A stretch of DNA of 45,069 bases, from the IMG/VR virus record IMGVR_UViG_3300027974_002293, positions 1 to 45,069 of that record; one strand, given 5' to 3'. This document shows, piece after piece, positions 23,183 through 44,088 of the stretch. Position 1 is the first letter of the stretch. The number at the start of each line of letters is the position of its first letter. The notes beneath the pieces were generated by a model that was not told the DNA's origin, did no database searches, and worked only from the letters and a program-made list of their open reading frames with translations. This DNA is from a virus. Both the position numbers and the translations under genes were made by a program.

Positions 23183-23191
23183 GGAGAAAAT

Positions 23192-23832: not shown

Positions 23833-24687
23833 TTAGCTTACGGTAATTCTTGAAACTGCATAGTCATTGATGAGCGCAAAACCGAGCTCTTCGTAAACAA
23901 CCCATCCAAGTCTAAGTCTCTTTGGATCGTCTGCTGGGAGAACAGTAATGTCTTGGCGAACTGGCATTGCACCAACGAATTGGGCAGGAGCAAGAACGTA
24001 AACACTGTTCTTTGGAACCATTGTGGAGACATGGATGTCTGCGGAATAAATATGTCCGTAGAGACCAGTCATAAGGATATCTCTTTGAGTTGCCTCATCG
24101 AAGAATTCCTTACCCCAGTTTCTGATATCCTTGTATCTTTGCGGGTGAAGAACAACCTTAGCGCCGATTAACTCGTGCTCTTCGATGAGGGTCAACGCAA
24201 GGTTGACGTTCTCTGGTTGAAGAGTACCAGAAACGGAGATTGATTGGTCAGTTGGAACACCAGCATTGATGACCTTGAAGACTTCAGTATCTTCTTGTCT
24301 TTGGAGGGAGTCCTTAGCACGGACTTGAGCTCTATCGACGATGTAGAATCTTCTTTGGCGAATCTCATTGAGTCTGATCTGTGGATGAGCAGCCAACTCA
24401 ATGGTTGGAACAAGAAGCTCTTCTGCTTCAACTTCTGCAGCAGGAACAGCACCACGCTTAGGAATAACGTATGACTTTACAGCCACGTCTCTCTCATAGC
24501 GAGCTAAAGCACCTTGTGGGAGCTCATCGACCATAAGAAGCTTACGGCCAATTGCTTGGTACATAAGGGAGGTCTTGATTGGCTCAACCATTGCTTGTGC
24601 AAGTGCTGTGCGTCCCTCTGGAGTCTCAAGAGCCATTGCAATAATGGACTCTCTTTGCTCATTTGTGTTTCTCTTAATCATTGACAT
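23833..24687 (-). CDS. Major capsid protein, HK97-like fold (284 aa)
   Basis: Last gene of the head operon. The N-terminal helical part is followed by beta-rich segments. The C-terminus VVYEELGFALINDYAVSRIT is characteristic of a group of HK97-fold major capsid proteins, and HPQRYKDIRNWGKEFFDEA plus DILMTGLYGHIYSADIHVS resemble P- and A-domain segments. The upstream Shine-Dalgarno (AAAGGAG at 24698-24704) is strong. Base composition is visibly less AT-rich than neighbouring genes, as expected for a very highly expressed protein. The protease/scaffold, portal and decoration candidate lie just upstream. Confidence 0.8.
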   Translation of the reverse strand: MSMIKRNTNEQRESIIAMALETPEGRTALAQAMVEPIKTSLMYQAIGRKLLMVDELPQGALARYERDVAVKSYVIPKRGAVPAAEVEAEELLVPTIELAAHPQIRLNEIRQRRFYIVDRAQVRAKDSLQRQEDTEVFKVINAGVPTDQSISVSGTLQPENVNLALTLIEEHELIGAKVVLHPQRYKDIRNWGKEFFDEATQRDILMTGLYGHIYSADIHVSTMVPKNSVYVLAPAQFVGAMPVRQDITVLPADDPKRLRLGWVVYEELGFALINDYAVSRITVS

Positions 24688-25406: not shown

Positions 25407-27095
25407 CTAATCCTCGAGTTTTGGCATTGTCCAAGTGCCCTTGAGAGCACCTTGGATGTCAAGAGCTGCACTGTTAGAAGCAAAGCTTCCGTGGAATGCA
25501 GGGGATGTAGATACGCCTAAAGTTGAAGCAGTTTTTGTCATTTTTTCTGCAGCAGCAGCAGCGACTCTTTCAGTTGATGTTTGTGCAGACTTGAGTAAAA
25601 GTTTAGTTTGTCTAATCATTGAATCTGCTTTCAAGCCATCATTAAGCATTTGCTCTGCATATGAATCTACTTCGTCAGAAGTGATAATTCCTGCAAGTGC
25701 AAGTTTAGATGCACAACCATAAGATGTTTTGATTCTAGCTAAGTCGAGTGAACTAGCGGCTAATTCTTTTCCAACATCTTGTGTCATTTTATTGACTTCA
25801 ATCGCTGTGTTTTTACCTTGTTGCATAGTCATTGATGCATCACCGATTTGTTTTGTATCAATTGTTGCAGATGCTTTTTCCATATCATGGTCTTTGCCAG
25901 ATTCTTTGTTGGTTGGACAGTCGTTATTTGCACATCTGGTAGAATCTCTTTCCATTTCTTCATCAGACATAGACATTCTTGTACCGCAAGAAGTGCACTC
26001 AACTGTGTTTTTCTTGTCTTTCTCAGCAATTCTGTTGTTACCAGCATTTGCACGAGTGGTCTTGTGTGGCATATTTGGCATTTGAGTTGGAACTTCAAAA
26101 AGATTTGCATCTTCAAGTCCCTCTGATGGATTCTCGAGAGATTCCCAATTAACAACGTACTCTAATGAGCCATCGCCTGAACCTTCAAACTTCATAGGCT
26201 TTGTTACATCTGGAAATTGAAGTGAATCTGGGTTGTTTGTAGGAACTCTTTGCTCAGCCCAGCTTGGGTTTTGCTCTTTGAGTGAGTTGCCTTCGCCACC
26301 CTCAAAACTCATTGAAGGGTAATCGATTTCACCTTCCATATTAACCATATCTTCGTTGTATTTGAATGTGCTGTGCGCTGGATATGCCTCTTCTTCAGCA
26401 GCGAGCTTCATAAGAATTTCTTCTCTTTCTGCTCTTCTTAAAAGGGCTTCTCTTTGTGCCTTGCGCTCAGCTAATGCTTGTTTAGTCATATTTCTAACCT
26501 CATTGCTGTTTTTTGTAAATTTTTCAGTATTTTCATCTTCAATTTCATCTTCATCATCAGAATCCATATCTTCCATGTCATCCATGTCTTCCATTTCATC
26601 TTCTGAAGAATCTAAATCTCCGCCAAGAAGATTATCTAGCGCCTCTTGCACAGCTTTTTGTGCTTGATCAACCATATCAGCGGGAACTTCAATTTCAAAA
26701 GTTGCTACATCGTCACTTTCATCTGCTTCGTCACTGTCTTCCATGTCATCATCTGACATCTCATCATCATCTTCATCAAGTTCTTCTTCATCACTTTCAA
26801 AGTGATGAAATTCCATTTCTTCATCGTCGGATTCATCGTTTGCGAAGTCAACAGTCTCTTTGCCATCCTCTAAATCTAAACCAGCAAGCTTTATTCCGGC
26901 TTGTTTAGCAATATTAGGAAGATACTTTGCTCTGATTGCACTTGCCACAACTACAGCTTCATCATCATTCAATGATGCAGTTCTAGCCATATCATTTGTA
27001 CATTGAACAAAATCTTCTTTGTCTGTTGCTTGAATTTCTGCCAATTTTAAAGCTGCAAATTTAGCATTTTCGGCATTTTTCGAATTTTTATTCAT
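25407..27095 (-). CDS. Acidic scaffold/prohead core-like protein with zinc ribbon (562 aa)
   Basis: Very acidic: residues 76-130 and 160-190 are almost entirely Asp/Glu with Met and Ser, followed by a basic helical stretch (about 204-236) likely to form a coiled coil. A CxxC...C...C ribbon is at C367, C370, C388 and C393. The C-terminal third is Ala/Ser/Thr-rich with KTAS motifs. Position between protease and capsid genes, together with acidic and helical composition, fits an internal scaffold or prohead core protein removed or retained after cleavage. Ribosome-binding site AAGGGAAG. Functional call by inference. Confidence 0.55.
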   Translation of the reverse strand: MNKNSKNAENAKFAALKLAEIQATDKEDFVQCTNDMARTASLNDDEAVVVASAIRAKYLPNIAKQAGIKLAGLDLEDGKETVDFANDESDDEEMEFHHFESDEEELDEDDDEMSDDDMEDSDEADESDDVATFEIEVPADMVDQAQKAVQEALDNLLGGDLDSSEDEMEDMDDMEDMDSDDEDEIEDENTEKFTKNSNEVRNMTKQALAERKAQREALLRRAEREEILMKLAAEEEAYPAHSTFKYNEDMVNMEGEIDYPSMSFEGGEGNSLKEQNPSWAEQRVPTNNPDSLQFPDVTKPMKFEGSGDGSLEYVVNWESLENPSEGLEDANLFEVPTQMPNMPHKTTRANAGNNRIAEKDKKNTVECTSCGTRMSMSDEEMERDSTRCANNDCPTNKESGKDHDMEKASATIDTKQIGDASMTMQQGKNTAIEVNKMTQDVGKELAASSLDLARIKTSYGCASKLALAGIITSDEVDSYAEQMLNDGLKADSMIRQTKLLLKSAQTSTERVAAAAAEKMTKTASTLGVSTSPAFHGSFASNSAALDIQGALKGTWTMPKLED

Positions 27096-27210
27096 TTTAT
27101 TGCTGCTTCCCTTAATAAAATCAAATCTTTTATCAAAGTGTGTTATAAAAGTATTCCTTTATAAACTGATTATTTTTTCTTGATAAATAGGTTTTACACC
27201 TTTTTTATCT

Positions 27211-27240
27211 ATTTACGGGGAGATAAATCTCCCCATAAAT
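27211..27240 (-). terminator. Hairpin after protease/scaffold gene
   Basis: GGGGAGAT AA ATCTCCCC (27217-27234) with flanking ATTTA/TAAAT extending the stem across one mismatch. It lies directly after the stop of the 1379-aa gene. It lacks a clean U-run on the minus strand, so it may be an attenuator or RNA-stabilising hairpin rather than a full terminator. Confidence 0.55.
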
Positions 27241-27241
27241 C

Positions 27242-30200
27242 TTAGTCAATCCAAGTAATTGAGACATCCAATTTTGATGGATCTTTTTTGCTTGTTTTTA
27301 CAGATGTTCTAGAATAGTTTCCACAGCTATGGCAGAAAGTATTATTCTTTACTTTATTTGCTTTTCTATTTCCACAACTTGGACAAATCATACCGACAGG
27401 AAGCATTTTAGATGCTGTTCTGTCAAAGTCAGGCATTGCAGTTTTTAAGTAAACATCTGAATCAACTGTTGCTGAAAGTCTAACCATTGTCTTGATTGAG
27501 TTTGCAACTGTTCCTAAAGCAGGAGGCGCAGGAGAAGCAGCTGGAACCTCAGTTGGAGCTGTTGCTGCACCAAGGCCCATATCAGGTCCTAAACCACCAA
27601 GGTCTTCAGACTCTGGAGATTCTTTACCCTTGTCACCCATAGATATAAGCTCAATTGATTGAAGAATCTTGTATGTTGTTCCGCAGTTTTGACAATCTGC
27701 ATTTGATTCAGAAATATTTACATCATCTGATCCGCAAACTGGGCAAACACTTCCCCAAGGTTTCTTTTCACCTGGCTCTGTCATTGCATCAAGATCTGAT
27801 GTTTCGTTCATTTCTGTACCAGTCATAGCAGAGATTCCTAAATCTCCGCCAATAGGAGCCATAGCGCCTAAATTAGGGTCTACAGGGCCTGCAGCAGGAG
27901 AAGCGGGAGCTGGAGCACCCATAGGAGGAGCTACTTGTGCATATTTAGATAAAACTTCATCTCTTCTATTTTTTCTAGCAATTCTTGCACCTTCAGTCAT
28001 TACTACAGGTAATTCTTCAGCAATTACTTCTGCATCCGCATTTTCTTCGTCAACCTTGAAAGTTTTGGATGACATTGTTGAAACTGTTGCGGTTACATCA
28101 CCATTTTCTGAAACAACTAAATCAGTAAATGAGAAAGTGTTTGGATCTACTGTAAATCCGTGACCTTGAAGAACTTCCATTGCTTTTTGTTTGAATGCTT
28201 CATCAAAGCTATCGTCTCCAGGAGACATTCCGTTCAAATCTTCAGCAACGCACATAAATCTAAGGCAATCTGATTTTGTGTGTGTAACAGTCATTCCAGC
28301 AGTTCTGTCTGCTTCTTGTTTTGCTTCAATAGCTCTTGAAACTAATTTTTCTGCCAAATCGAAATCTTGGCAAAGTCTTTTTGCTGCTAATGCAATTTTG
28401 CGAGTTGGAATATTGAAGTTTGTTGAATAATCAGCAAGCCATCCAATCAAATTATTCTCAATTTTTTCTGCACTGGCAGTCTTGACTCCCCAAAACTCTC
28501 TTCTTGCTCTAGATCTTAATCTACCTTCAGTTGCAGTGGTGGTTTTTGCTCTATCAATTGCTGCCATAAGTTGTTTTTCTGGCATTGAGTCAACGACATC
28601 AACACCTTCACCTGGTGCAGTTCTTGTTTCTTCAGAGGACATTGCCATAGCACTAATTGCAGATTTCAAATCGTCTTTAGAAATTAAGTCACCAGCTCCG
28701 TCTACAGCTGATCTAAGCGCTGATCTGAGTTCTTCATTCTTTGAAGGTTGAGTATCAACATCAAGGCCAGTTTCAGGAGCAGCAGCCCCAGCCATCAAAA
28801 GTTCTGCAATTCTAGTGACACCTTCTTTGGTGATTTCGCCTTCTTCAACAGCAACCGAAAGTGCTTGCGAAAGGTCTTGAGCAGTTACTTCTGAAGTTAC
28901 AGCAGCGCCTAATTGTTTGAGGACAGCTGTGACTGGATTATCAACAGAAGATTGTCCAAAAAATTCTTCTTTCTCAGTATTTGCTGCATCCATTTCTGTA
29001 CCAGCAGCAGCAGTTCCAATCATTTCTGGAAGCATTGGTTCTTCAGATAAAACTTGTGCAACTCTCAAAATTGTCTTTGGAGTTTCAAACGAAGAAACAA
29101 CTGCTTTGCCTAATGCTTCAATTGTCTTGACCATGATAAGTTGTGCAGGAGCACTTCCTTCAGATCTGTGCTTAGAAAGTCTATTTTCTAAAACTTCAGT
29201 TGGAACACCCTTAGTTACTTCATCAACAAGTTCAGTCAGAGATTTTCTAACTTCATCATCCTTGACTCTTCTTCCATAAAGTCCAGCTTTACCAAGTAAA
29301 ATTTCCTTGACAGCTTCGGCACCTTCGCCTGTTCTTTTAGTATCAAGTTGTTGTTCTTTGCCAACAGTAGGAGCACCAGTATTTTTAGTTTTCACACCGT
29401 CTTGTAAATTACTATATGACTCACCAGATCTTACTTCTTCTAAAAGACTTTCTCTGTCGCCATCTCTGTCCTTAACATCAAGTAAAGCTGTTCTGACAAA
29501 TGATGAATAATCTTTTAACAGTTCTGCAGCAACTCTTGTGCCTTGTCCTGATTCCATCATAGAAATTTGATTTTCATTGAGGATAGGTTCCCAAGAAGTT
29601 CTTTTACCATTAGTAAATCCGGTTATCGATCCATCAGTTGAAAGAACAACTCTATTACCCGCACTGTCTTCAACCTTAAAATCGATTGTGACAGCAGCAG
29701 CTAATTTTTTTCTTTGCTCTGATGCAATCTTAGCAAAATGATCCATTTGATTTCTGCTCCCCGCCTCTATAGGCTTGTTTGTTTTTATGTTTTTATTTCT
29801 CTCATTAGCAATTCTAATGACATTTTGAATACTTTGATTGACTTGTTCTACGTTATTCAAATTATTTTTTAAACTCAGAATACTTTGTGCAAAGTTTCCA
29901 AATTTATCAACAGTTTTATGATTTGTACTTGCAAAAACTTCTCTTCTACCATCTTTAGAAGCCCAAACTAAATTATAGTTTGTAGATGCTAATGCAACTC
30001 CACTTCCAATAGGATTTGGATTACTGAAGTTAGTCATATCCATAACTTTTCCAACTGATTCAGTTGGAGAATAATTAGCTAAACCAATTTGTGGGCTTGC
30101 CATTTGTTGCGATGGATTTGGTTGTGCAGCTTGTGGCATACTTTGAGGTTGATTTATTGGCTGTGGTCTTTGACCACTACCAACGTCAACTCCATCGTCG

Positions 30201-31381
30201 ATCATGTCTTGCATAGTAGACTGAAGTTCAGCCATTGACTTAGTGATTTTGCCTACGTGTCCTAAATCAACATTGTCTTTACGTGCAAACATATTCATTA
30301 CAGCAACTTCTAAAAAGTTCAAAGAAAGATTGATAAGATCAAGAATGTTAAGGCCAGATCTTGGATCAATTCCTAAGGCTCCCAAAACTGCTGCAACTGT
30401 TGAATTTTGATTAGCTCCCTGACCAGCTAATAGTTGTCCGCCAACTAATGTGCCTGCTTGTTGTGCAAGTCTGATAGCAACATTGGTAGTTTGATTTGCT
30501 TGTCTCAAACAGCTTTCATATGCTGTTCTTTCATTAATATTTTCAGGGATTTCTTGTAAAGCTAAAACAATATTTGAATTTATTTCATTAGCTTTCTTTT
30601 CTAAATTTGTTGCTGCACTTAAAACGTCATCAACATCATAAATTTCTTGAATTTCACAAGACTCAAAAGCACCATCACCTACACAGCTTAATTCTATAAA
30701 CTTAACTCCATAGTTTTTTTCATAAGCTTTCTTGCCGGTTTCAGGATAAGTCTTGCCTTTATATTTTTTCAAGTGCTCACAATAGTCTCTTTCAGTATAG
30801 GCTTTATTGTTACAAATGGAACAAACGCCCCACTCAACACTTGCACCCATACTTACATCGTGAATAACACCTGTTCTAATATTTCTTGCGATATCAGGAT
30901 ATGCTTCCTCATCTACAAAGAAAGTACAGTAAACACAGTTTTCTTTTTCGTCCCATTCAGCGTAAACAACCATTCCTTTAGCTTGTTCAATATCATCATT
31001 TTTATGATTTGTATATATTGGAACACCTTCGAAAGATTTATATGCTGGGATTTTTTGACCTTTTAATTCAACTTCTTTAAGTAATTCTTCTTTAGAAAAC
31101 AAGTCACCGTTTGCATTAACAACGTCTGCATCAATTGCTCTGGCTCTTACCCAAAGTAATTTAGCACCTTTACGAGCTTGCATTTCTTTAACGATATCAA
31201 AATCTTTGTATTTTTCTAATACTTCTTTAGGATCAGCATAGAGTGATTGTAAACCAATTTTTGCTGCTTCCCTCATATTTGAAGAAGCAGTTTTTATTAA
31301 GTGCTCTCTTGCCGCAACTCTGTCGTTTTCATTAAGAAAACTTTGCACAGTTATAGCACCACCTTTTGCAACTCTATACAT
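27242..31381 (-). CDS. Prohead protease fused to large scaffold-like region with zinc sites (1379 aa)
   Basis: Residues ~70-250 look like a prohead (head maturation) serine protease: YTNHKN (candidate catalytic His126), a KGMVVYAEWDEKE strand pair, IARNIRTGVIHDVSMG (candidate Ser177) and a Cys/His knuckle C187, C190, C201, H203 before FIELSCVGDGAF. The remaining ~1100 residues are low-complexity, helical, Glu/Ala/Pro-rich and scaffold-like, ending in two zinc ribbons (about C1213-C1233 and C1333-C1353). Phage proteases are usually 200-350 aa, so this is an unusually large protease-scaffold fusion. Ribosome-binding site AAAGGAA. It probably cleaves itself and other core proteins during head maturation. 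Confidence 0.65.
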   Translation of the reverse strand: MYRVAKGGAITVQSFLNENDRVAAREHLIKTASSNMREAAKIGLQSLYADPKEVLEKYKDFDIVKEMQARKGAKLLWVRARAIDADVVNANGDLFSKEELLKEVELKGQKIPAYKSFEGVPIYTNHKNDDIEQAKGMVVYAEWDEKENCVYCTFFVDEEAYPDIARNIRTGVIHDVSMGASVEWGVCSICNNKAYTERDYCEHLKKYKGKTYPETGKKAYEKNYGVKFIELSCVGDGAFESCEIQEIYDVDDVLSAATNLEKKANEINSNIVLALQEIPENINERTAYESCLRQANQTTNVAIRLAQQAGTLVGGQLLAGQGANQNSTVAAVLGALGIDPRSGLNILDLINLSLNFLEVAVMNMFARKDNVDLGHVGKITKSMAELQSTMQDMIDDGVDVGSGQRPQPINQPQSMPQAAQPNPSQQMASPQIGLANYSPTESVGKVMDMTNFSNPNPIGSGVALASTNYNLVWASKDGRREVFASTNHKTVDKFGNFAQSILSLKNNLNNVEQVNQSIQNVIRIANERNKNIKTNKPIEAGSRNQMDHFAKIASEQRKKLAAAVTIDFKVEDSAGNRVVLSTDGSITGFTNGKRTSWEPILNENQISMMESGQGTRVAAELLKDYSSFVRTALLDVKDRDGDRESLLEEVRSGESYSNLQDGVKTKNTGAPTVGKEQQLDTKRTGEGAEAVKEILLGKAGLYGRRVKDDEVRKSLTELVDEVTKGVPTEVLENRLSKHRSEGSAPAQLIMVKTIEALGKAVVSSFETPKTILRVAQVLSEEPMLPEMIGTAAAGTEMDAANTEKEEFFGQSSVDNPVTAVLKQLGAAVTSEVTAQDLSQALSVAVEEGEITKEGVTRIAELLMAGAAAPETGLDVDTQPSKNEELRSALRSAVDGAGDLISKDDLKSAISAMAMSSEETRTAPGEGVDVVDSMPEKQLMAAIDRAKTTTATEGRLRSRARREFWGVKTASAEKIENNLIGWLADYSTNFNIPTRKIALAAKRLCQDFDLAEKLVSRAIEAKQEADRTAGMTVTHTKSDCLRFMCVAEDLNGMSPGDDSFDEAFKQKAMEVLQGHGFTVDPNTFSFTDLVVSENGDVTATVSTMSSKTFKVDEENADAEVIAEELPVVMTEGARIARKNRRDEVLSKYAQVAPPMGAPAPASPAAGPVDPNLGAMAPIGGDLGISAMTGTEMNETSDLDAMTEPGEKKPWGSVCPVCGSDDVNISESNADCQNCGTTYKILQSIELISMGDKGKESPESEDLGGLGPDMGLGAATAPTEVPAASPAPPALGTVANSIKTMVRLSATVDSDVYLKTAMPDFDRTASKMLPVGMICPSCGNRKANKVKNNTFCHSCGNYSRTSVKTSKKDPSKLDVSITWID

Positions 31382-31459
31382 ATAAAAATTCCTTTAAAAT
31401 AAAGTTTCTGATACCTGTATTCTAAAAATGTACTCTTTAAACCTTTGATTACTTAAAGC

Positions 31460-31485
31460 TAAACCCGTCGGTTTCGACGGGTTTA
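31460..31485. terminator. Hairpin between portal and protease/scaffold genes
   Basis: Perfect 11-bp stem TAAACCCGTCG with its complement around a GTTT loop, in the 123-bp gap downstream of the portal stop. Short T-rich tails on both sides fit a terminator or attenuator separating portal from protease expression. Confidence 0.7.
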
Positions 31486-31504
31486 TTGTACAGTTTAGTT
31501 AAAA

Positions 31505-33886
31505 TTATAAATATTTTTCACCATCTCCATTTGAACTTTGACCTGTACGTTTTTTAATTGCATTTATCAAGACGTTCAAACAATCTTGAGGATGATCTTG
31601 TAGCTCTTTATCAGTAAATCTAATTATAATCCAACCATTGACTGCTAATTCTGAATCTCTTCTCTTATCTTTAGCAATTTTATCTGGATTGTTGTGCCAA
31701 ATTTCTCCATCTGCTTCAACACCAATTTTCAAGTTTGGAATTGCTCCATCCAATTGATAATCCATTGTTGGACCAGCTGAATATTGAGCATAAAGTGGGA
31801 AAGGCATATTCAATGACATCAATAATCCATATAATTTCTTTTCTAAAGACGTAAACATCTTTGGTTGATTAATGTTTTCTAATTTTTTTGCAATAACCTG
31901 TCTGATAGATTCATTTTTGTTATTTGCATAATGATGCATTTCATTCATAGCATAATTATTCAATGGGTAAGAAAGCGAACCGCCAATAAACGGTGTATCA
32001 ATTACTCCAAAAAGACCATCATACTCAACTGGCAGAGGGCCTAAATTAGCTCTACCAGTAACAGGTTTCAGACTCATTAAGAAAGCTTCGTGAGCTGAAG
32101 ATTTTATTTTCTTACTTGCGGTTCTAATTTTATCTGATTTATTTAAGTCGTCTAGTCTATTTTGATATATACTATTTACAATGTCTGATGCGAGCCTATA
32201 ATTTTCAAGCATAGATTTTGCTGTAGGCGCTGGAGCTTCTGGCATTGGGGCCGGAGGAGCTGCTCCAGCTGGAGAAGCACCAGGAGCTCCACCAACACCA
32301 AGGTCTGGTGCAGGAGGGGCTGCGCCCATGTCTGCACCTCCAGATGCGCCAAACCCTTGACCTGTTACGCCACCACTTTGAAAACTTAATGATATATTTG
32401 GTGTTCCAAAACTTTGGTCGCTCATAAAATTAGCGCCTTGTTCATATCTAAGTCTTTCAATTTCTTGGTCAGAATCAAGACCAAATGCTTCAATCAAGGA
32501 AACATTTGAAATTACACCATTCTGATTTGCTGTTACAAGCATCTGCAATTTGCCAGTGTCGTCTCTTAACTGCAGGTCATCAAATTTAATACGTGGATAA
32601 ACAATTTCTTCTTGCCCACGTTCTCCTTCAATAACAAATCCATTCCATTTTGCAACGGGCATGAAAATATTCATTTCTACCCAGTGAGCAACTTCTCTTC
32701 GGAATGTTTCTAGTCTTTGAGCCATTGCAAGAAGACCAACTTGAGCGTTTCCGTAAGTAGGTCCTTCACCATTCAACAAGGCTTTATTAAGCATGACACC
32801 ATCAAGAATTTCTTGTTCGATAAGTTCAAATTCACCAGTCAAAGGGTGAATTTTTCCAGTTGCACCATACCACTCTAGATCAAAGTTATGGTGAGTAACA
32901 AGAGTTAGGTTTGGATCATTCGCAATTGACGCTAATTCATCTTGAACATTGTCGATGTCTTCTTGAGATGCTGGTCTTGTATCGCTACCAATCTTTACAA
33001 CTTTGATTGGTAAAATAAGGCGTTCAGCAATCATATACTGAGCTTGTCTCAGTTTATCTTTGTATGTCAAAATTGGGAATAATGGTCTTATCATAGAGAT
33101 GCCATAATCTTCCCAAGGATTTGAACCATACTTAAAGTGATGTATGGAAATCTGGTTTAATTTGATAGGATCGCCCTTGAGAATAAGTTTCTTAATTCCG
33201 TCTGGGATAGAATCATAAATATCTTTAGGATGTCTTTCGTTTACAATTCGGATTTCTTCAGCAGACGGTCTGTAAGCATAGCTACCCTGCTGGTCAATCA
33301 TCCCTGGAGTCTTAATTACATTATCAGGGTTTAAAATAGAAATGGATTTCCAAGAAGCTCCATCGTGTTGACATTCTTGATTTTTATCTTCGTCCCAGTT
33401 TGAACCGTGGCAGTGAGGGCAATCAATAGATAACAGAACAAAAGCATCACCTAATAAATGATATACTTTTGAAATTTCAGGAAGCCATTTTTGAAAATTA
33501 AGTTTTTCTACTAATTTTTCAAAATAATCTTTAACGTAAGAAGATGAACATTCTAATTTCCAACCAGAGAATGGATAATTGGTATAGAAGTTAATTGCTG
33601 CAGAAACTTTTGGTTCATTGTTCTTCCACCAGTTTGCCCATAGATACACTTCACGTCGAGCATTTGGGATTTGAAATGAAGATGGAGTAAGGAATGGAGA
33701 ATAGAAGTTAGGAGCAGTTGTGATAGAATTGATACTGGCAGATCTTGTAACACCAGGACCTAATCCTAAGCCAATACGACTACTTGCATATGCTTGTTTT
33801 GATTCTGAAGTGGCTGTACTAGTCGAGCCTGAAACTTGTGTTGCTGCTGTTCTAATAGCAGATGCAAGAGATGTTTTTGTTGCCAT
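31505..33886 (-). CDS. Portal protein with C-terminal DUF559/Vsr-like nuclease domain (793 aa)
   Basis: Residues ~60-560 read as a phage portal: ANWWKNNEPKVSAAINFY, HLLGDAFVLLSID, GSNPWEDYGISMIRPL, DKLRQAQYMIAERLILP and the long helix LLAMAQRLETFRREVAHWVE. A Cys/His cluster (C156, C159, H160, C172, H174) sits in the clip/stem half. After a Pro/Ala/Gly linker, residues ~680-780 form a PD-(D/E)XK nuclease-like domain: YQLDG (D713), VEADGEIW (E724, D726), then DKRRDSELAVNGW and IIRFTDKEL, the DUF559 pattern with key acidic residues intact. One uninterrupted frame. It starts at an ATG just downstream of a TATAAT promoter. Confidence 0.8.
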   Translation of the reverse strand: MATKTSLASAIRTAATQVSGSTSTATSESKQAYASSRIGLGLGPGVTRSASINSITTAPNFYSPFLTPSSFQIPNARREVYLWANWWKNNEPKVSAAINFYTNYPFSGWKLECSSSYVKDYFEKLVEKLNFQKWLPEISKVYHLLGDAFVLLSIDCPHCHGSNWDEDKNQECQHDGASWKSISILNPDNVIKTPGMIDQQGSYAYRPSAEEIRIVNERHPKDIYDSIPDGIKKLILKGDPIKLNQISIHHFKYGSNPWEDYGISMIRPLFPILTYKDKLRQAQYMIAERLILPIKVVKIGSDTRPASQEDIDNVQDELASIANDPNLTLVTHHNFDLEWYGATGKIHPLTGEFELIEQEILDGVMLNKALLNGEGPTYGNAQVGLLAMAQRLETFRREVAHWVEMNIFMPVAKWNGFVIEGERGQEEIVYPRIKFDDLQLRDDTGKLQMLVTANQNGVISNVSLIEAFGLDSDQEIERLRYEQGANFMSDQSFGTPNISLSFQSGGVTGQGFGASGGADMGAAPPAPDLGVGGAPGASPAGAAPPAPMPEAPAPTAKSMLENYRLASDIVNSIYQNRLDDLNKSDKIRTASKKIKSSAHEAFLMSLKPVTGRANLGPLPVEYDGLFGVIDTPFIGGSLSYPLNNYAMNEMHHYANNKNESIRQVIAKKLENINQPKMFTSLEKKLYGLLMSLNMPFPLYAQYSAGPTMDYQLDGAIPNLKIGVEADGEIWHNNPDKIAKDKRRDSELAVNGWIIIRFTDKELQDHPQDCLNVLINAIKKRTGQSSNGDGEKYL

Positions 33887-33893
33887 AACATAT

Positions 33894-33899
33894 ATTATA
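33894..33899 (-). promoter_or_regulatory. -10-like TATAAT promoter of portal gene
   Basis: The minus strand reads CGGTATAATATATGTTATG. The hexamer ends 7 nt before the portal ATG, there is no ribosome-binding site and no -35. It matches the CGGTATAAT sites at 12920 and 18931. Confidence 0.6.
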
Positions 33900-33914
33900 C
33901 CGTTCTATTTTTTA

Positions 33915-34442
33915 TTAGAACCAAGTTTGATTAGATGGAAGTTGTCCGAAGAGTTTTGGATCTTGTTTGCCACTTAATGCTTGTGTATAACCTTCACCAT
34001 TCTTTAAGTGCAAAAATCCTTCACCTTTTTTGTAAGCATTAGAATCTGCTGGACTGACATTATTGTTTTGTTGCCTTGAGCCATCTAAAAGATTTTCAAG
34101 AGTAGTTTCTTCAGGGTTGGAGTGATGTTCAGAATGTCTTCTCGCTTCATTGGATGCTGACTGTGGACCAGTAATAAATTGACCATTATTGTCCATATTC
34201 ATTCTATGAGGTCTCTTTACAAGTAACTCCCAAATTTCTGCCTGCTGCTCTTTTGTCATATGATAATAATCATCGACAGTTTTGTTCATTTTTTTAAGAA
34301 TACCAGGTAGTTCATCGTAAAGACCTTGTGGCTGATTGTCAATATCTTTAACAATGTCAATTCCGGCATTTTGCTCATTAGTAGATTCATTTCTTGAAAA
34401 ATCTACTCCACCGCCAAATGATACGACTTTTCTATACCACAT
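33915..34442 (-). CDS. Head-associated protein of unknown function (175 aa)
   Basis: Begins with an ATG inside the end of the 527-aa gene, so the two are coupled. Hydrophilic, Asn/Gln/His-rich and probably partly disordered, with one helical segment near residues 53-75 (VDDYYHMTKEQQAEIWELL). It contains TTLENLL (113-119), one copy of a short motif repeated in its upstream neighbour. The position just before the portal gene suggests a head or packaging role. I do not recognise the family. Confidence 0.55.
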   Translation of the reverse strand: MWYRKVVSFGGGVDFSRNESTNEQNAGIDIVKDIDNQPQGLYDELPGILKKMNKTVDDYYHMTKEQQAEIWELLVKRPHRMNMDNNGQFITGPQSASNEARRHSEHHSNPEETTLENLLDGSRQQNNNVSPADSNAYKKGEGFLHLKNGEGYTQALSGKQDPKLFGQLPSNQTWF

Positions 34443-36015
34443 CGTCGTATTCTTCTCTTTTAGATTGCATTACATAATCTAAGCCGAGTTCATTTGCAAA
34501 GTTTTTAAGATCGTCTTCAGAAAATTGATGACCCCAATCATCATCATCAGTATCACTCAATAGTTGTTCGATACTTTTGTCATTTTTGTTGTTTTGTCTA
34601 TGGGATTCTAATTCTTCTTCTTTTGAATCTTCGCTAACTTTCTTTGATGCAGATATATTTTTATTGAGTAAATTACTTACTGACTCTTTAGGCTCAGCTT
34701 TATTTTTATTGAGTTCATTTCTATAATTCTTTGGTTCTTTGCTATCAAGCAGTTGTTCAGCGTATGATTTCTCCATTTCGCCTTTTCTTGAATAAAGACC
34801 ATCTTCGAGTTGTTCTTCTCGAGTAGTCTCAGTATCAGAATCTACATCATTGAGTTTTCTTAATAAAGCCTCAAGATAGTCACTACCGCTTTGCTCTTCT
34901 CTAGGTAATTGAGAATCTATAGTTTTCATAGAATCAGATTGAGCTTGCTTTGGTCTTAGAACAGGTTTACTACCTTGCTGATGGCCATAACTTGACTCTT
35001 TTGTCTCAGAAAGTTGTTTTTCTCTAGAGTCTGATTCGTTATGTTTACCTCTAACTTTATTTGCGCCTCTATCAGAATTCTCAAATCTTGCTTCAAAACC
35101 AACTTCACCGTCAGTCAGTTTTTTAGATCTTTCACCTTCAGCAAGATTAAGTAAATTGGCTTCATTATCAGGATGCCTATGGACATCAAGTTTGCCCATA
35201 ACTTGATCATGTGATTGGAAAGCTGTTTTCATCCAGTCAGCATATGCACAAGTCACAGTTCCATCTTTACCAATTCTTGAGTCAATGCAGTTTTCTCTAC
35301 ACTTAGAAATCTCCATTGGTACAGGGCCTTTACCTTGAAGTTTTCCTTTAGGGCATAAAAGATAAGGCTCATTGTCTTGTGTTGATAATGTAGTGTATGC
35401 AACTCTTTTCATTTCAGATGGAGTTATGCTTGAAAATGTCTGTTTTACTTTTTCGGCAACTTCTGATACGGCTTCTTTGTTGCCAGAAAGAACTAAAGTT
35501 CTTGCTTTATCTAAAAATGATTTAGAAATAACATTATCAGCAAATCTATACAAATTATCTAAAGAATTAATGGACTCAATCTGCCAATATCCAGTAGATT
35601 TGTCTTCTTTTTTGTATGCAACTCTTTCAAATTTAACAGCAGAGGATTCTTTGTTTAAAAAACTTTGAAGAGACACGTATGCATATCTTAGAAGATTTCT
35701 TTGTTGTGCTAATTTGATATTATTTAATGTTTTGTATGCGCTATGAACTTTTGATGCTGGTAAAGCAACAATAATTTCAGGTCCACCCATTGACTTAAAG
35801 CTATTTGTTATAGGATCGTCACCAAAATCATCAGCACTTAAAACATGAAAAGGAGAAGAGTGTGGAATTCTTTCTCCATCACCAACATTTGACAAAGTAT
35901 CTTGGAGCATTTGCAACAATCCCATACCGCCAATCTTGGAATTCCCCAAAATTTTCTCAACTTTGTTTGGATCGTGTGTTTCATACTTAGTAGTGATTTT
36001 GTATCCGTGTTCCAT
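34432..36015 (-). CDS. Head-region protein with Cys cluster and repeat-bearing tail (527 aa)
   Basis: Two parts. The N-terminal ~310 residues look folded, with helices around 90-125 and a Cys cluster (C221, C239, C243, C256) likely to bind zinc, followed by WMKTAFQSH. The C-terminal ~215 residues are charged and disordered, holding four copies of a [S/D]-[I/V/Y]-x-x-LL motif (YLEALL, YAEQLL, VSNLL, IEQLL). This resembles an array of docking peptides. Function unknown; position between unknown head genes and the portal suggests head assembly. The stop is TAG, inside the next gene's start region. Confidence 0.55.
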   Translation of the reverse strand: MEHGYKITTKYETHDPNKVEKILGNSKIGGMGLLQMLQDTLSNVGDGERIPHSSPFHVLSADDFGDDPITNSFKSMGGPEIIVALPASKVHSAYKTLNNIKLAQQRNLLRYAYVSLQSFLNKESSAVKFERVAYKKEDKSTGYWQIESINSLDNLYRFADNVISKSFLDKARTLVLSGNKEAVSEVAEKVKQTFSSITPSEMKRVAYTTLSTQDNEPYLLCPKGKLQGKGPVPMEISKCRENCIDSRIGKDGTVTCAYADWMKTAFQSHDQVMGKLDVHRHPDNEANLLNLAEGERSKKLTDGEVGFEARFENSDRGANKVRGKHNESDSREKQLSETKESSYGHQQGSKPVLRPKQAQSDSMKTIDSQLPREEQSGSDYLEALLRKLNDVDSDTETTREEQLEDGLYSRKGEMEKSYAEQLLDSKEPKNYRNELNKNKAEPKESVSNLLNKNISASKKVSEDSKEEELESHRQNNKNDKSIEQLLSDTDDDDWGHQFSEDDLKNFANELGLDYVMQSKREEYDDVV

Positions 36016-36017
36016 AA

Positions 36018-36884
36018 TTAATTTCCTAACCCAAGCATTGACAATTCTTCTTTATCAAATCCTCTGTCAGTTAATGCTTTTTTGATTTCTGCCAATTCTT
36101 CTTTAGCACCCTTTTTATTTGCTGGATCCTTGAAATCACCTTGAGGAGTTGACTTACTGTAATCAAGTAAATCCATCAAGAAACAAGCTCTTAAAATTAA
36201 TTCTGAAGTAGATCTTTTGTGGAAATTTGGAGATTCGTCATAATTCAAAGATGCAGTTTTGACAGCTTCTTTTTTTGAATCTTCTTTTTCGTCTTTATCG
36301 TCATCTTTTTTTAGTTTCCTGTTATAATCTTTGACGATATCTACCGCACGTTCAATTGTTTCTTTATTCCAATACTTAAGCTTGGCAATATATCTTACAA
36401 TATCGTTTTTCTCTACACCGTGATCTAGAAGTTTTCCAACCTTGCCCATCAAAACTCTGAATGGATTTCCACGAGTTTTTTTCTTTTTCTTTTGTGCTGC
36501 TCTTGAATTATTGTACACTTTGTCTTCCTTCTTAGATGTGATATAGAGTTCATATATTTCTCTACCAATATCTTGATAAGTAGGGTCCAATTCACCTGTA
36601 AGTGGGTCTTTAGTTCTAGTTCTTCCACTATTAGAATGCATTAATGCTTTAGATAATTTATCAAGTTTATGTTTAAGATTTTCATCAACAATTCTTACGC
36701 TTACATTTGCAACTTGATCTGCCATTACTTGAAAATCGTCTTTACATGCTAATACTTCTTGCAGTAAAGTTTGCAATTCTGATTCTGTAACGCCTTCAAT
36801 TTGTTCCCCTCCAAGTGGAATATTATTGATTCCATTTGCAGGATTTGATGCTAATGCCGGTCCTTCAGAATTGTTTGGTTCCAT
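36018..36884 (-). CDS. Head-region helical protein of unknown function (288 aa)
   Basis: Hydrophilic, largely helical, Lys/Asp/Glu-rich. A basic stretch (KKKKKTRGNPFRVLMGKV, ~133-150) could touch nucleic acid. A VKTASLNYDE motif near residue 210 is shared with other head proteins here. The C-terminal helix pair KEELAEIKKALTDRGFDKEE resembles small structural helical hairpins. Starts 2 bp after the upstream stop. I do not recognise a family; head assembly is inferred only from the operon. Confidence 0.5.
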   Translation of the reverse strand: MEPNNSEGPALASNPANGINNIPLGGEQIEGVTESELQTLLQEVLACKDDFQVMADQVANVSVRIVDENLKHKLDKLSKALMHSNSGRTRTKDPLTGELDPTYQDIGREIYELYITSKKEDKVYNNSRAAQKKKKKTRGNPFRVLMGKVGKLLDHGVEKNDIVRYIAKLKYWNKETIERAVDIVKDYNRKLKKDDDKDEKEDSKKEAVKTASLNYDESPNFHKRSTSELILRACFLMDLLDYSKSTPQGDFKDPANKKGAKEELAEIKKALTDRGFDKEELSMLGLGN

Positions 36885-36886
36885 TT

Positions 36887-37693
36887 TTATCTTAAGTCTA
36901 AATCAATATTGTTGTAAATGTCAGAAACAGTTTGCGCTCTATTTTTAGATTTTTCTATCATTTGATCTTGAAAATTCTTTTGTATGGAGAGTCTTTCATT
37001 TCTAACACGGTCTTGGTTAGCAATACGCATACTTTCTCTTTGGTCTAAACTTTCAGGATCAATCATTCCAAATGTTGAGTTGAATTCATTATCTGATGAA
37101 GTTCTCAAAATAGAATGAGCTCTGGAATTAACAACATTTGCTTTCTTAATTTTGTTAATGTTTTTCTCTTCCCAAGATTGATGCCTAGATGCTTTAGCTT
37201 CTCTCAATCTTTGTTGTTCTACAACTGCTTGTTCAGTTGTTGATTCTTGGGAATTCAAAAATTCTTTTGAAATTGAAATCATATCAGGATTGAAAATATT
37301 AGAAGATCCTCTGAGCATACAATCCATATATTCCTCAGATGAATATGCCTTCAAACCACTTGTTGTAGTTCTTGCACTTTCACCGTCATCATAAAAAGAA
37401 CCTGATCTCTTAATAGCAGAAAAATCTTGTGCTAAAAGTCTATCTTCTACAGTTTCTTGTCTTAAGTCATTGTAAAGAGATGGGCCGGAAATTTTTTCCC
37501 ATGATTTGCTGAAAGAATTAGCTTCTTTAGTAAATCCTATGTTTTGCTTAGAAATTTTCATTCTATTTTCAGCAGAATTCATTCTCAATTCAGCATATGG
37601 GTCTTCTTCAACTTCAACTTGAGCACCAACAAATTTTTTCTCTAAAAAACTTGGTATATTTTCAATTTCTGATACTTTTTTAAATCTACTCAT
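36887..37693 (-). CDS. Head-region helical protein of unknown function (268 aa)
   Basis: Good Shine-Dalgarno (AAGGATG). Charged, mostly helical and low in Cys. The C-terminal region RESMRIANQDRVRNERLSIQ could form a coiled coil. A HSILRTSSDNEF segment resembles the KTAS-type motif in neighbouring proteins. No membrane segment or catalytic motif. Probably virion or prohead associated by position; function unknown. Confidence 0.5.
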   Translation of the reverse strand: MSRFKKVSEIENIPSFLEKKFVGAQVEVEEDPYAELRMNSAENRMKISKQNIGFTKEANSFSKSWEKISGPSLYNDLRQETVEDRLLAQDFSAIKRSGSFYDDGESARTTTSGLKAYSSEEYMDCMLRGSSNIFNPDMISISKEFLNSQESTTEQAVVEQQRLREAKASRHQSWEEKNINKIKKANVVNSRAHSILRTSSDNEFNSTFGMIDPESLDQRESMRIANQDRVRNERLSIQKNFQDQMIEKSKNRAQTVSDIYNNIDLDLR

Positions 37694-37760
37694 TTTTTCA
37701 TCCTTAATTTATTCAAGAATGTCCCAAGGCCTAAACCTTGGGACTTTTCTTCTTGAGGAA

Positions 37761-38795
37761 TTAATTTTTCTTGTCGTATTTCTTGGTAAATAAGGCGTCG
37801 ATCCAATCTTGGTCGCCATAGCCTAAATCATTTTTCCAATAATCAATGAGTCTTGAATAATCAGCATCAGAAAGTGTTGCTGTCTTAATCATTGATGACG
37901 CTGCAGCAATCTTAGTACTGTGATCGAGCTTTGATGCTAAAACACTTCTGATTTTTGCTGTATTGTCAACCTTTTTAGTAGCAACTTCGCCAATTCTTGC
38001 TTGGATATACTCAACTGGGAAACCCTCTGCAAGAGCCTTTTGTGCAAAAGCTGTTTTCATAGCAGGAGTCATTCCAGAATTTTGAGTCTTTCTAGATGCA
38101 GTCTTAACTGGTTGTGGTTGAACTGATTGCTCTTCAACACTTTGAACAAGTGCTTCTCTGTAAGCTCTTCTTTGTGCTAATCTAACAGACTTTTCTTTTT
38201 CAGAAGCAATTCTTGTTTCAATTTGTGAAGCAAGTCTGATTCTTCTGTCGTGTCTAGCAGCAAGAATAGCACTCTTTAAGTGCTCATCGCCAGCAGCTTC
38301 TGCAGCTTCAACTGCTTCTGCGGAAAGTTGTGAAGGATGGTTGAAGACATATGCTTTCTTAACTTTCTCATCTTTCTTAGGACCTTTTCTCTTCATCGGG
38401 CCCTTTGCATGATCTTCGTGATCTTCTTCTTCTTCGTCTTCGTGATCTTCGTCTTCGTGATCTTCAGATTTGTTTTTCTTGCCTTTCTTGTTCTCTTCAA
38501 GCCACTTAGCTAAGCCAGGATTAAGGCCTTTCTTAGCCATTTTGGTTGAATTGTGATACATAGATTCATCTTCCACATCTTCATTTGCGTAAGAAGAACC
38601 AGCTTCTTGTAACATATCAACCTTTTCTTTGCCAATAGAGTCTAAGAGTGCTTTAAGACCTTTATCTTTGTCTTCCTCACCATTTTCAGCAGCTGCTAAT
38701 CTTTGGTTAAAGTTATCCCAGTCAATTCCTTGAAAAACAAGGTCAGAATCAAGAGGGTCTTCTTGATATCTGTTTGGGAAAATTCTATCTGCCAT
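37761..38795 (-). CDS. Acidic/basic head-region protein with His-Glu-Asp repeats (344 aa)
   Basis: Ribosome-binding site GAGGAG. Residues ~110-130 are a run of EDHED repeats, followed by a basic patch (MKRKGPKKDEKVKK). The centre is an Ala/Arg-rich helix (ARHDRRIRLASQIETRIASE) and the C-terminus carries three [K]TA motifs (VKTAS, MKTAF, IKTAT). The composition resembles prohead core or scaffold proteins that are cleaved on maturation. No known domain recognised. Confidence 0.5.
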   Translation of the reverse strand: MADRIFPNRYQEDPLDSDLVFQGIDWDNFNQRLAAAENGEEDKDKGLKALLDSIGKEKVDMLQEAGSSYANEDVEDESMYHNSTKMAKKGLNPGLAKWLEENKKGKKNKSEDHEDEDHEDEEEEDHEDHAKGPMKRKGPKKDEKVKKAYVFNHPSQLSAEAVEAAEAAGDEHLKSAILAARHDRRIRLASQIETRIASEKEKSVRLAQRRAYREALVQSVEEQSVQPQPVKTASRKTQNSGMTPAMKTAFAQKALAEGFPVEYIQARIGEVATKKVDNTAKIRSVLASKLDHSTKIAAASSMIKTATLSDADYSRLIDYWKNDLGYGDQDWIDALFTKKYDKKN

Positions 38796-38844
38796 AATTT
38801 TGTTTTCTCCTCAAGAAAAAATACATTAAAAAAACTTCTTAAAT

Positions 38845-38864
38845 TTAAAGGGTAATTCCTTTAA
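38845..38864 (-). terminator. Weak hairpin downstream of DUF192 gene
   Basis: TTAAAGG and CCTTTAA form a 7-bp stem with a 6-nt loop, followed on the minus strand by a run of seven T about 10 nt on. It lies just after the TAG of the DUF192 gene and before the 344-aa gene. Weak stem, so tentative. Confidence 0.35.
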
Positions 38865-38869
38865 TGCAT

Positions 38870-39253
38870 CTATTTATTTTCTTTATCTAAAATCAGTTTG
38901 TTGCCCTTCATTATAAGCTTATCGCCTATTTTTATACCCAATTTGTCAAAAGTTCCCTTATTTGCTTCTACAACAAAAATAATCTTTGAACTTTCAGGAT
39001 AAACAGATTTAGGATCATCTGCTTCCATATCTTTAATGTCTCGAATTCTGTACTTATCATCTAAAAAAGCTAATGATAATGGAAAACTAACATTTTTATT
39101 CCAAAAAGAGTAACAGTCAGGATAATCAAACTTGAAAACGACAACTTCGAAGTTTTCTAAAGGCTCCGCAAACATTAAGCCTTTTGTTCGTAATTTGTCA
39201 TTATTTGCTAAAAATCTAATTTCAAATTCATCACGGAATTTGTCTTTAGTGAG
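38870..39253 (-). CDS. DUF192 domain coding region lacking a standard start codon
   Basis: The C-terminal 101 residues (from the Met codon at 39175) match DUF192: SFWNKNVSFPLSLAFLD, RDIKDMEADDPKSV, FVVEANKGTFDKLGIKIGD. The family's N-terminal strand and GLM signature lie upstream of that Met: the 26 codons before it encode FEIRFLAN...LRTKGLMF, ideal for the family. They contain no ATG, GTG or TTG and run straight back, in frame, to the TGA that ends the 163-aa gene. Translation may begin at an ATT (39220), arise by UGA readthrough, or yield only a truncated domain from 39175. DUF192 function is unknown; a virion role is not established. Confidence 0.7.
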   Translation of the reverse strand, partial: LTKDKFRDEFEIRFLANNDKLRTKGLMFAEPLENFEVVVFKFDYPDCYSFWNKNVSFPLSLAFLDDKYRIRDIKDMEADDPKSVYPESSKIIFVVEANKGTFDKLGIKIGDKLIMKGNKLILDKENK

Positions 39254-39745
39254 TCAAGAACCAACTTTCTTAAATTTATTAGCAGAAGCCTTTACACTTC
39301 TTGCAGCTTCTAAATCAAATCTATCTTTAGTTCTTTGTTTTCTAAACTCATTGACATTTTCTGTTGAGAGAAAATGATCTCTAAGAGCTAATTTTGCCCT
39401 ATCTGTCAGTTCTACAGATCTGCCATAGCCTGTTATTAATCCAGCTGTTTTCAATGCAAGCAAATCATTATCAGAAATATTGTTTGGAACACTGCAGACT
39501 TTTCCATCTTTGTTTAAGGCCAATTGAGACGCTGCAGTAACAAGTTCGTCAGTAGAAGCATCTATAGTCCTAAGCATATCAATATATCTAGTGCTCAATT
39601 TAGCTGCTTCTGCCTTTTTAGGTTGTTGGGAAACTCCTAATAGTTGAATTTGGATGTCTGATAATCCAAGTCCTTCCATTGATGGGCCGTCAAATAATTC
39701 TGCGTGTAAATCTAAACTATGTACTGGTTTAATTGGTATTGGCAT
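39254..39745 (-). CDS. Winged-helix-like head-region protein (163 aa)
   Basis: ATG at 39745 follows AAGGAGA and begins MPIPIKPVHSLDLHAEL; a longer start would overlap the previous gene. The middle has a helix-turn-helix/winged-helix-like arrangement (DLLALKTAGLITGYG then VELTDRAKLALRDHFL). The basic C-terminus ends VKASANKFKKVGS. Ends at TGA 39254-39256 in the same frame as the DUF192 region downstream. Function unknown. Confidence 0.55.
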   Translation of the reverse strand: MPIPIKPVHSLDLHAELFDGPSMEGLGLSDIQIQLLGVSQQPKKAEAAKLSTRYIDMLRTIDASTDELVTAASQLALNKDGKVCSVPNNISDNDLLALKTAGLITGYGRSVELTDRAKLALRDHFLSTENVNEFRKQRTKDRFDLEAARSVKASANKFKKVGS

Positions 39746-39755
39746 AATAATCTCC

Positions 39756-40196: not shown

Positions 40197-40197
40197 T

Positions 40198-41187: not shown

Positions 41188-41232
41188 AATGATTTTTTCT
41201 TATTTTAAAATTTATAATCCTTTATACTTTAA

Positions 41233-43344
41233 TCATCTTCTGTTCAAATTGACCATTTTTGATTTAGGCAATCTTGCGATAATTTTAGAAGTAAGACATT
41301 CAAAAGAAACTGCGGCAACACAGTCACATATGTCGTCTTTGTAACCAGACAATGCTTCGATATAGTATCTTTTGCCTTTCCATTTTTTTTGCAAGAATAA
41401 AAACTGAGTTTTTGCTTCTTGAACTTCATTTAGTGGTTGTAGTGTATTGTGCATATCTGCGTAACTACCACCTGATAAATCATAGACATCAATCCTGTCA
41501 TCTCTAATTAATTGAGCTAATTCTGTATAGATTTTTTCTTTATATTCTTTATTAAATTGTCTCTCTATAATTGGAACGCCATAACTTTGAAGCTTTATAA
41601 CTGATGATTGTGAATTCCAGTGATCAATTGAAACTTGCTTAAATCTAAATCTACGATGTAAATCAATTACATAGTCTTCAACTTCTTTTTCTTTGACAGG
41701 TTGATTTCTTGTAAGAGGATTCCAAAAATGGATATGATCTATGACAACTCTCTTAAGAGGTGTATGGTCAGGCCCAATAGTCCCATACATTGTCTCTGTA
41801 TGAGCAATGACAAGAGCATAATAGTCAGATGTTCTCGCAGGGTCAATATGGCAAAAATATTCGAAAAGACCGTCTGGCATTTCTTTTCTTTTAACCATAT
41901 TTTGACTTTTGAACATTTTATCTATATCTTCGGACATAAACATAGGGTCTGATGATGAAGCACCAAACTCAGCTCCATATTGCATTTGAAATTCTTGTGG
42001 GTCTTTTCTCTTTTGCCCATCAAGCCATTCTTTATCAATGTTTGGATTAGTAAGCCAAGTAGGAAGTCTCATCACAAGAGTTGTTGGATCTTCCTGTCTA
42101 TTTTCATGCAAGTCATATAGCAATCCAATAGGGCCTTTGGGGTTGGAAAGAAGCATCATTTTGCCATCTTTACCAAATGTAGCTAGTGATGGCTTCAAAT
42201 CATCATAAAGACCGTAGTCAACGCCAGAATCTGGATTATCTCCTGCCATGGCTGCAACTTCGTCCATAATAATAGACCAACAAGTAAGACCAACAAGACC
42301 TGAAGCATTACTACTACCACATCTTAGGACTAATGATCCAGCAAAAGGATTGATTTTATCTTCTGCTCTTCTGACATTTTCTTCCCTATCGTGTTCAGTA
42401 TAAAACCTCATTTCAAGTTCAGTATCTTTACCTATATATGGAGCAAAAAATGGAGAAGCCAGAACTGTCTGTTTGATTTTTGAGAAGATTGCTTTTTTAG
42501 CCTGTTCTTCATTTCTAGCAACGTTCAAGAGTACAATCTCATCAAATTCCATTAGTCCATATCTTGCTTGTGGATGACCCATAGATATTAAACGATATAA
42601 TTCATAAAGAGCCATAGCAGATACAAGGAACGATTTGCCAGAACGTCTCCCCAGTACTAAGACTAATTCTTCAAACTTGTATCTTTTTGTGCATTTTTCT
42701 TGAACTTGCATCCTTAGTTTTGGATCAAATTCCTCAGAATACAATAAATCGTTTTCTGTTTGAAACCCATCTATTATTGGCCTTGATTCTAATACTTCTA
42801 CCTGTCTTTCAGCATCTGGATTAGTTGCTTCTTGACGAGCATATCTATATCTTTCATCTCTTACGTTACTGTCAAGCCTAGAACACTGTAAACAAGGCGA
42901 ATTTACAACGTTAAAAATAGTTTTAAATTGCTTTTCTTGTTCTCTAGCTTTAAAGAAAGCAGTTTCATTTTTATGGACATAATTCCATACGCAACCATTA
43001 CATCCAGAATCTGATTTATCATCTAAAATTGTAAGACTGGTATTTCCTTCCTGACCCATATAAAAACATTTCAAAATTAATTTTTGCCAAGGATAAGGCC
43101 TTAAATTACAAAAATACGGATGCTCAATAAATGTAATAATGTCTACAATTTGGTCAGGATTGAATCTATCTTTTGCAGGTTTGGCAGGAGGTGCAACTTC
43201 TTGTCTTCTTGCTGGAACAATTTCATCAGCAAAATCATTTGCATATTCAGTATCTTTGAAAAGTTCAGTTACAGAATTGGCTTGTTGTAGAAGCTGACTT
43301 CTAAGTTCATTGGAAGACTTGACTACAGGAGTTGGTTTTCTCAT
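41233..43344 (-). CDS. Terminase large subunit (703 aa)
   Basis: DNA-packaging ATPase/nuclease. ATPase: Walker A GRRSGKS (232-238), Walker B IIMDE (358-362), coupling motif LLSN (398-401). RNase H-like nuclease: HIDPARTSDYYALV (D501), VSIDHWN (D574) and DDICDCVAA (D674) give the three acidic metal ligands. The N-terminal domain holds a CxxC...CxxC pair (C115, C118, C151, C154) that could bind zinc. It is longer than many terminases (about 450-650 aa). TAATG overlap with the TerS candidate upstream. Works at the portal vertex to fill the head. Confidence 0.92.
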   Translation of the reverse strand: MRKPTPVVKSSNELRSQLLQQANSVTELFKDTEYANDFADEIVPARRQEVAPPAKPAKDRFNPDQIVDIITFIEHPYFCNLRPYPWQKLILKCFYMGQEGNTSLTILDDKSDSGCNGCVWNYVHKNETAFFKAREQEKQFKTIFNVVNSPCLQCSRLDSNVRDERYRYARQEATNPDAERQVEVLESRPIIDGFQTENDLLYSEEFDPKLRMQVQEKCTKRYKFEELVLVLGRRSGKSFLVSAMALYELYRLISMGHPQARYGLMEFDEIVLLNVARNEEQAKKAIFSKIKQTVLASPFFAPYIGKDTELEMRFYTEHDREENVRRAEDKINPFAGSLVLRCGSSNASGLVGLTCWSIIMDEVAAMAGDNPDSGVDYGLYDDLKPSLATFGKDGKMMLLSNPKGPIGLLYDLHENRQEDPTTLVMRLPTWLTNPNIDKEWLDGQKRKDPQEFQMQYGAEFGASSSDPMFMSEDIDKMFKSQNMVKRKEMPDGLFEYFCHIDPARTSDYYALVIAHTETMYGTIGPDHTPLKRVVIDHIHFWNPLTRNQPVKEKEVEDYVIDLHRRFRFKQVSIDHWNSQSSVIKLQSYGVPIIERQFNKEYKEKIYTELAQLIRDDRIDVYDLSGGSYADMHNTLQPLNEVQEAKTQFLFLQKKWKGKRYYIEALSGYKDDICDCVAAVSFECLTSKIIARLPKSKMVNLNRR

Positions 43345-44024: not shown

Positions 44025-44030
44025 TTACTC

Positions 44031-44036: not shown

Positions 44037-44039
44037 CAA

Positions 44040-44073: not shown

Positions 44074-44088
44074 AATTTCAAGATATAA

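Follow-up and report, generated by a model that had tools for sequence, protein, structure and literature searches.

The window analysed here is a stretch of 45,069 nucleotides of viral DNA, comprising positions 1 to 45,069 of IMG/VR record IMGVR_UViG_3300027974_002293. Its minus strand carries one continuous frame in which a phage portal protein is joined to a C-terminal DUF559/Vsr-like nuclease domain. An initial annotation, made from the sequence alone, had placed this fusion at the correct coordinates and in a single frame without naming the strand, and its reading of the frame as such a fusion is fully supported by profile matches, the AF2 fold and relatives with the same architecture. 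The gene, its parts and its main neighbors are as follows:

31505..33886, minus strand, whole gene, portal–nuclease fusion of 793 amino acids in a single open frame
32387..33709, minus strand, portal core (residues ~60–500), with matches to phrog_16240, Portal_Mu, gp14, and YonE (9pha)
32219..32374, minus strand, Pro/Ala/Gly-rich linker (residues ~505–556), evident from its sequence and relaxed constraint
31871..32218, minus strand, variable region (residues ~557–672) leading from the linker to the nuclease, marked by its median dN/dS (see below)
31541..31861, minus strand, DUF559/Vsr-like nuclease domain (residues ~676–782), identified by Pfam, AF2, and Foldseek
27242..31381, minus strand, head-maturation protease (N-terminal) with a long extension, 1379 amino acids, phrog_18299 (3.7e-20)
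41233..43344, minus strand, terminase large subunit, phrog_2 (9.6e-29, covering residues 213–677)
23833..24687, minus strand, major head protein, phrog_2522 (4.8e-68)

The gene order terminase, portal, protease, capsid is common to the relatives with full flanks, and in 21 of the 22 relatives checked the portal is followed downstream by the protease gene. As the initial annotation had claimed, the terminase has its own nuclease residues, the usual acidic positions being kept by eye (in CHIDPA, VSIDHW, and KDDICDC). An Rfam search of the window gave no match, and an intron or RNA element at the portal–nuclease junction was therefore rejected.

Within the portal part, residues 60–421 match the portal family phrog_16240 (1.4e-28) and residues 229–468 match Portal_Mu (29.8 bits against a cut-off of 23.9). 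YonE (9pha), the SPbeta portal solved as a dodecamer, matches the portal profile with an E-value of 4e-6, and gp14 of Bacillus phage G shares 27.8% identity with the portal core. This phage G protein, a member of the phrog_16240 family, resembles the fusion in its homologous portal core and its Gly/Pro-rich C-terminal tail, but it has only 648 amino acids, lacks the nuclease and is followed by a separate gene, gp15. In the phage-G-like L119 (5698–8745), by contrast, the portal and a gp15-like protein that bears a CPxC...H..C motif form one fusion. Searches of the fusion protein with PHROG and Pfam profiles yielded no MuF domain, which sets it apart from the MuF polymorphic toxins. Portals are among the most conserved parts of the virion and normally form a ring of twelve copies, and in tailed phages their C-terminus lies on the interior side of the head; the full-length AF2 model of the fusion (pLDDT 39.5) is too poor for placing the C-terminus.

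In the C-terminal domain, DUF559 (PF04480) covers residues 706–776 with 27.0 bits (cut-off 20.6), or 31.7 bits when the domain is scored by itself, and exceeds its cut-off in all seven large relatives; MTES_1575 matches the same residues (39.5 vs. 38.2, domain alone). An AF2 model built from a 121-residue C-terminal piece and 56 relatives is confident (pLDDT 82.6) and has a helix–three strands–helix–strand–helix core. The restriction-endonuclease core proposed by the initial annotation is thus present, and the alpha-beta-beta-beta-alpha-beta arrangement seen by AF2 and Foldseek, together with the conserved acidic residues, places the domain in the PD-(D/E)XK/REase superfamily. The top PDB match in Foldseek was the catalytic domain of the EDxHD homing endonuclease I-Bth0305I (3r3p; E 3.6e-5, TM-score 0.73–0.77 on the target), NGO0050 (3hrl) reached a TM-score of 0.83, and Vsr (1vsr) and PvuRts1I were further matches; in profile comparisons, 3hrl and 3r3p scored 2.5e-13 and 5.7e-9, respectively. 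NGO0050 shares not only the fold but also the D-(x10)-E-x-D, H, D..R pattern. Unlike the portal domain, however, NGO0050, other DUF559 proteins and the mismatch nuclease Vsr are stand-alone cellular enzymes, with the function of DUF559 mostly unknown, and I-Bth0305I is a mobile-intron endonuclease that is no part of a virion and differs at several active-site positions in the aligned crystallized chain. The resemblance to Vsr is one of fold only, as the Vsr family profile TIGR00632 scored 18.9 bits against a cut-off of 97.85.

The predicted active site is formed by the following residues:

31748..31750, minus strand, D713, predicted metal ligand
31709..31717, minus strand, E724-A-D726, predicted catalytic E-x-D
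31694..31696, minus strand, H731, predicted catalytic residue
31667..31669, minus strand, D740, predicted catalytic residue

D713, E724, and D726, already described as intact, are invariant across 27 relatives, and so are E682, H731, D740, and R743. When bacterial DUF559 proteins are aligned with the portals (56 rows), D713, E724, and D740 are still invariant and E682, D726, H731, and R743 are at least 90% conserved. Judged by these alignments and the model, the C-terminal domain is a DUF559/Vsr-like nuclease fold with a conserved predicted active site. E682, D713, H731, and D740 follow the order of the EDxHD motif, but the aligned I-Bth0305I chain differs at the positions of D713 and H731; PADLOC reports an HEase match for the domain. 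No DNA-binding module was recognized, and the domain profiles stop at the catalytic core. Two DUF559 proteins from archaeal bins (L211 and L235) share the EADGEIWH motif with the portal domain.

Scans for relatives, which pick candidates through short peptide patterns and thus represent a sample of the lineage rather than a census, recovered the fusion from both of its ends. With the portal part only, 76 loci were found in IMG/VR, comprising 65 in-frame fusions, seven genes that run off contig ends and four without the nuclease; the suggestion of the initial annotation to look for other portals with the same C-terminal domain was thereby borne out by 65 of the 69 matches whose portal gene escapes contig ends. 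The four unfused, uninterrupted portal frames belong to L103, phage G, and two phage-G-like relatives (at most 31% identity). With the nuclease only, 72 of 73 loci were fused to portals, the remaining one being the L103 contig. In the relative L103/L183 (L103, 5974–8328) an in-frame TGA lies between linker and nuclease while both parts are otherwise intact, which could reflect a split gene, readthrough or a sequencing error; recoding of TGA is unsupported, as code 4 barely alters the coding coverage. A scan with the second-clade portals gave 12 loci, of which 11 are fused and the last is a partial match in scattered pieces. L251 is likewise partial and scattered, and is a second portal match on the contig of L247.

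The fusion is present in two clades (clade 1, to which the window belongs, and clade 2), between which the portals share ~45% and the nucleases ~32% (28–38%) identity. Contigs that carry it reach 358, 379, and 476 kb, and the lineage is one of phages of 300–480 kb. None of the GenBank/INPHARED phage records covers 80% of the protein, and no portal–nuclease fusion was found in isolate phages, where the listed C-terminal matches are helicases, homing endonucleases, and hypothetical proteins. Contigs of cellular genomes yielded DUF559 proteins only, without a portal nearby. The portal domain is the sole DUF559 match in five of the seven large genomes; the second-clade loci L259 and L260 have an extra DUF559 protein, a 303-amino-acid frame away from the portal.

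Median pairwise dN/dS was lowest in the portal core (0.066) and the nuclease (0.079) and higher in the variable region (0.262) and the linker (0.275); as synonymous sites are near saturation, this order deserves more trust than the figures themselves. In the clade-2 portals checked, the clade-1 profile did not pick up the variable region (residues ~557–672). Distances between portals and between nucleases are closely correlated (Mantel r 0.97, 54 distinct proteins, none of 999 permutations as high), although tests of this kind are inflated when the proteins are related. A tree that also included 41 cellular DUF559 domains places the portal nucleases on one side of a branch with a support of only 78, and separate origins of the fusion need not be assumed. 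A single old fusion, inherited together with the portal, is the simplest reading of these sequence comparisons, and the portal–nuclease fusion of these huge phages is genuine and ancient. The second-clade portal genes L115, L185, L187, L188, L190, L191, and L250 are also interrupted by Hint/LAGLIDADG inteins, which occupy several positions (L185 has two, L191 three, and the 1841-amino-acid frame of L250 at least three insertions), and all retain the C-terminal nuclease.

A short motif recurs at the boundary between linker and nuclease and in other head proteins. As [KR]TAS was first spotted by eye, its enrichment is descriptive and its conservation is the better evidence: it occurs nine times in the 6,765 amino acids of head-module proteins (window 25407–44802; shuffle mean 0.23) and not at all in the 7,907 amino acids of the remaining window proteins (shuffle mean 0.17), and within 179 kb of the closest genome the head module accounts for nine of 13 occurrences (Fisher p 3e-6). 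Two sites are located in the fusion protein between linker and nuclease:

32186..32200, minus strand, candidate maturation site YRLAS (residues 563–567), Y[RK]xAS in 26 of 27 clade-1 relatives
32114..32128, minus strand, candidate maturation site IRTAS (residues 587–591), [RK]xAS in 26 of 27 clade-1 relatives

Both are conserved within a region that otherwise changes fast in clade 1. Further copies of [KR]TA(S) are found near the portal N-terminus and, in both clades, just ahead of the maturation protease domain; the 1379-amino-acid protease protein contains IKTAS (29–33) ahead of this domain, VKTAS (~966), and DRTAS (~1320), of which the first two are conserved. From this distribution, [KR]TA(S) is read as a candidate site at which the head-maturation protease cleaves. 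Cleavage at A/S is also a property of herpesvirus assemblin, which provides a lead. No [KR]TA(S) occurs at the linker–nuclease boundary of clade-2 portals; release by clipping, if real, is therefore not universal.

Because portal C-termini face the head interior, each portal copy would take one nuclease into the prohead on its flexible linker. In clade 1, the head-maturation protease would then probably cut the conserved [RK]xA/S sites just past the linker and free a nuclease-bearing fragment of ~200 amino acids inside the head, which would exit with the genome and cut DNA in the newly infected cell, be it that of the host, a plasmid, or a rival phage. The fusion would in this case act as a fixed-dose loading device. 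We tentatively favor this combination of cargo loading, clade-1 clipping, and ejection with the DNA over its rivals, rating it as plausible at somewhat below an even chance. That the portal is a fixed-stoichiometry carrier whose protease-clipped nuclease is ejected to strike early at the DNA of the host or of rivals is possible, if on the doubtful side.

Among the roles offered by the initial annotation, delivery with the virion fits best, as a prediction. Resolution of branched DNA ahead of the motor, another of these roles, is geometrically unlikely because the portal C-terminus in the head interior puts debranching before the motor out of reach. This, and the presence of RusA-like resolvases in four of the seven large genomes (two of them below cut-off; RuvC was not found in the resolvase search of the fusion-bearing genomes), led us to favor cargo loading. 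The proposed second nuclease at the packaging vertex holds insofar as the nuclease sits on the portal, but in clade 1 the domain may leave the vertex, since a candidate maturation-protease site separates it from the linker.

Delivery would agree with the [KR]TAS excess in head proteins and, by analogy, with the enzyme-domain fusions of portal and MuF proteins that have been interpreted as injected effectors (PMC5512222), among them portals that carry PBECR, 2H, or InPase domains, for which injection was proposed (PMC5512222). MuF proteins adjoin the portal in the head (PMC5576092). Here, too, an enzyme domain is carried on the portal and predicted to be packaged and injected, delivery itself being a prediction; in contrast, the described enzymes are mostly RNA- or nucleotide-directed, with no DUF559/Vsr domain named among them (PMC5512222), and the present domain has a DNase fold and is fixed in its lineage. 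Such fixation under strong constraint argues against delivery, as effectors of that kind are usually variable and prone to loss. The lack of constant self-protection in the seven genomes also argues against it: N6/N4 methyltransferases were found in just two, and thymidylate-synthase-type base modification genes in none. The phage's own DNA might instead be spared through site choice, a requirement for mismatched or modified DNA, or limitation of the metal.

The nuclease could, alternatively, stay on the portal and act on the DNA of the phage itself where the channel opens into the head. Its tasks there might be the trimming or release of ends, headful termination, or the clearing of damaged or joined DNA, either while the head is being filled or ahead of ejection. 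Portal-like constraint without loss in the lineage is what would be expected of such a core packaging function, and in clade 2 the boundary is free of candidate cut sites. A precedent is T4 gp4, a virion-associated nuclease with a TnsA-like REase fold that T4-like phages need for packaging in addition to the terminase, but gp4 is a separate protein of another nuclease family and is not fused to the portal (PMC7824862). We nevertheless consider a portal-bound enzyme rather unlikely: the interior position expected from general portal topology is ill-suited to resolving branches before the DNA reaches the motor, RusA-like resolvases are at hand in the genomes mentioned above, the candidate cut sites of clade 1 would detach the nuclease, and the terminase has its own.

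It is improbable that the 3' end of the portal gene has captured a homing endonuclease, whether one that still spreads its allele by cutting portal genes without the domain or one that persists as a domesticated remnant. The best solved match is indeed a phage homing endonuclease, PADLOC points in the same direction, and the LAGLIDADG inteins in the same portal genes of several relatives identify the gene as a homing target. Homing genes are patchy, however, and EDxHD homing endonucleases are mobile and sporadically distributed, whereas this nuclease is near universal in its clade and co-diverges with the portal; it also lacks an intron and a recognized DNA-binding module, and its constraint is as high as that of the portal. 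Less probable still is that the fold has been retained without catalysis, to bind DNA or play a structural part within the head, which would suit its position inside the head and its strong overall conservation, but the residues kept most widely are those of the active site, common to bacterial DUF559 proteins. An artificial joining of two genes by assembly or frameshift, for which only the in-frame TGA of L103/L183 could speak, is refuted by the same join on dozens of contigs from many samples, including 65 of the 69 portal-only relatives and an identical portal gene on a 358-kb contig, and the assembly chimera at the linker that the initial annotation had considered is likewise ruled out.

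In the literature searched, which covered few subscription papers, neither a DUF559/Vsr domain nor any DNase was described on a portal. Portal–enzyme fusions as such are already known, and what is new is that a nuclease of the DUF559/Vsr-like type joins them. An intact predicted active site under portal-level constraint across phages of 300–480 kb indicates that the domain does something these phages need, and the candidate maturation sites allow a direct test of whether the portal ring serves to load an enzyme into the head.

The remainder of the window encodes, on the minus strand, a complete acetolactate-synthase-like thiamine-pyrophosphate enzyme with all three Pfam domains (7766–9493). 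On the plus strand, positions 13330–23782 hold glycosyltransferases, a DegT aminotransferase, a PhyH dioxygenase, and a methyltransferase, a gene set that suggests sugar or glycan synthesis.
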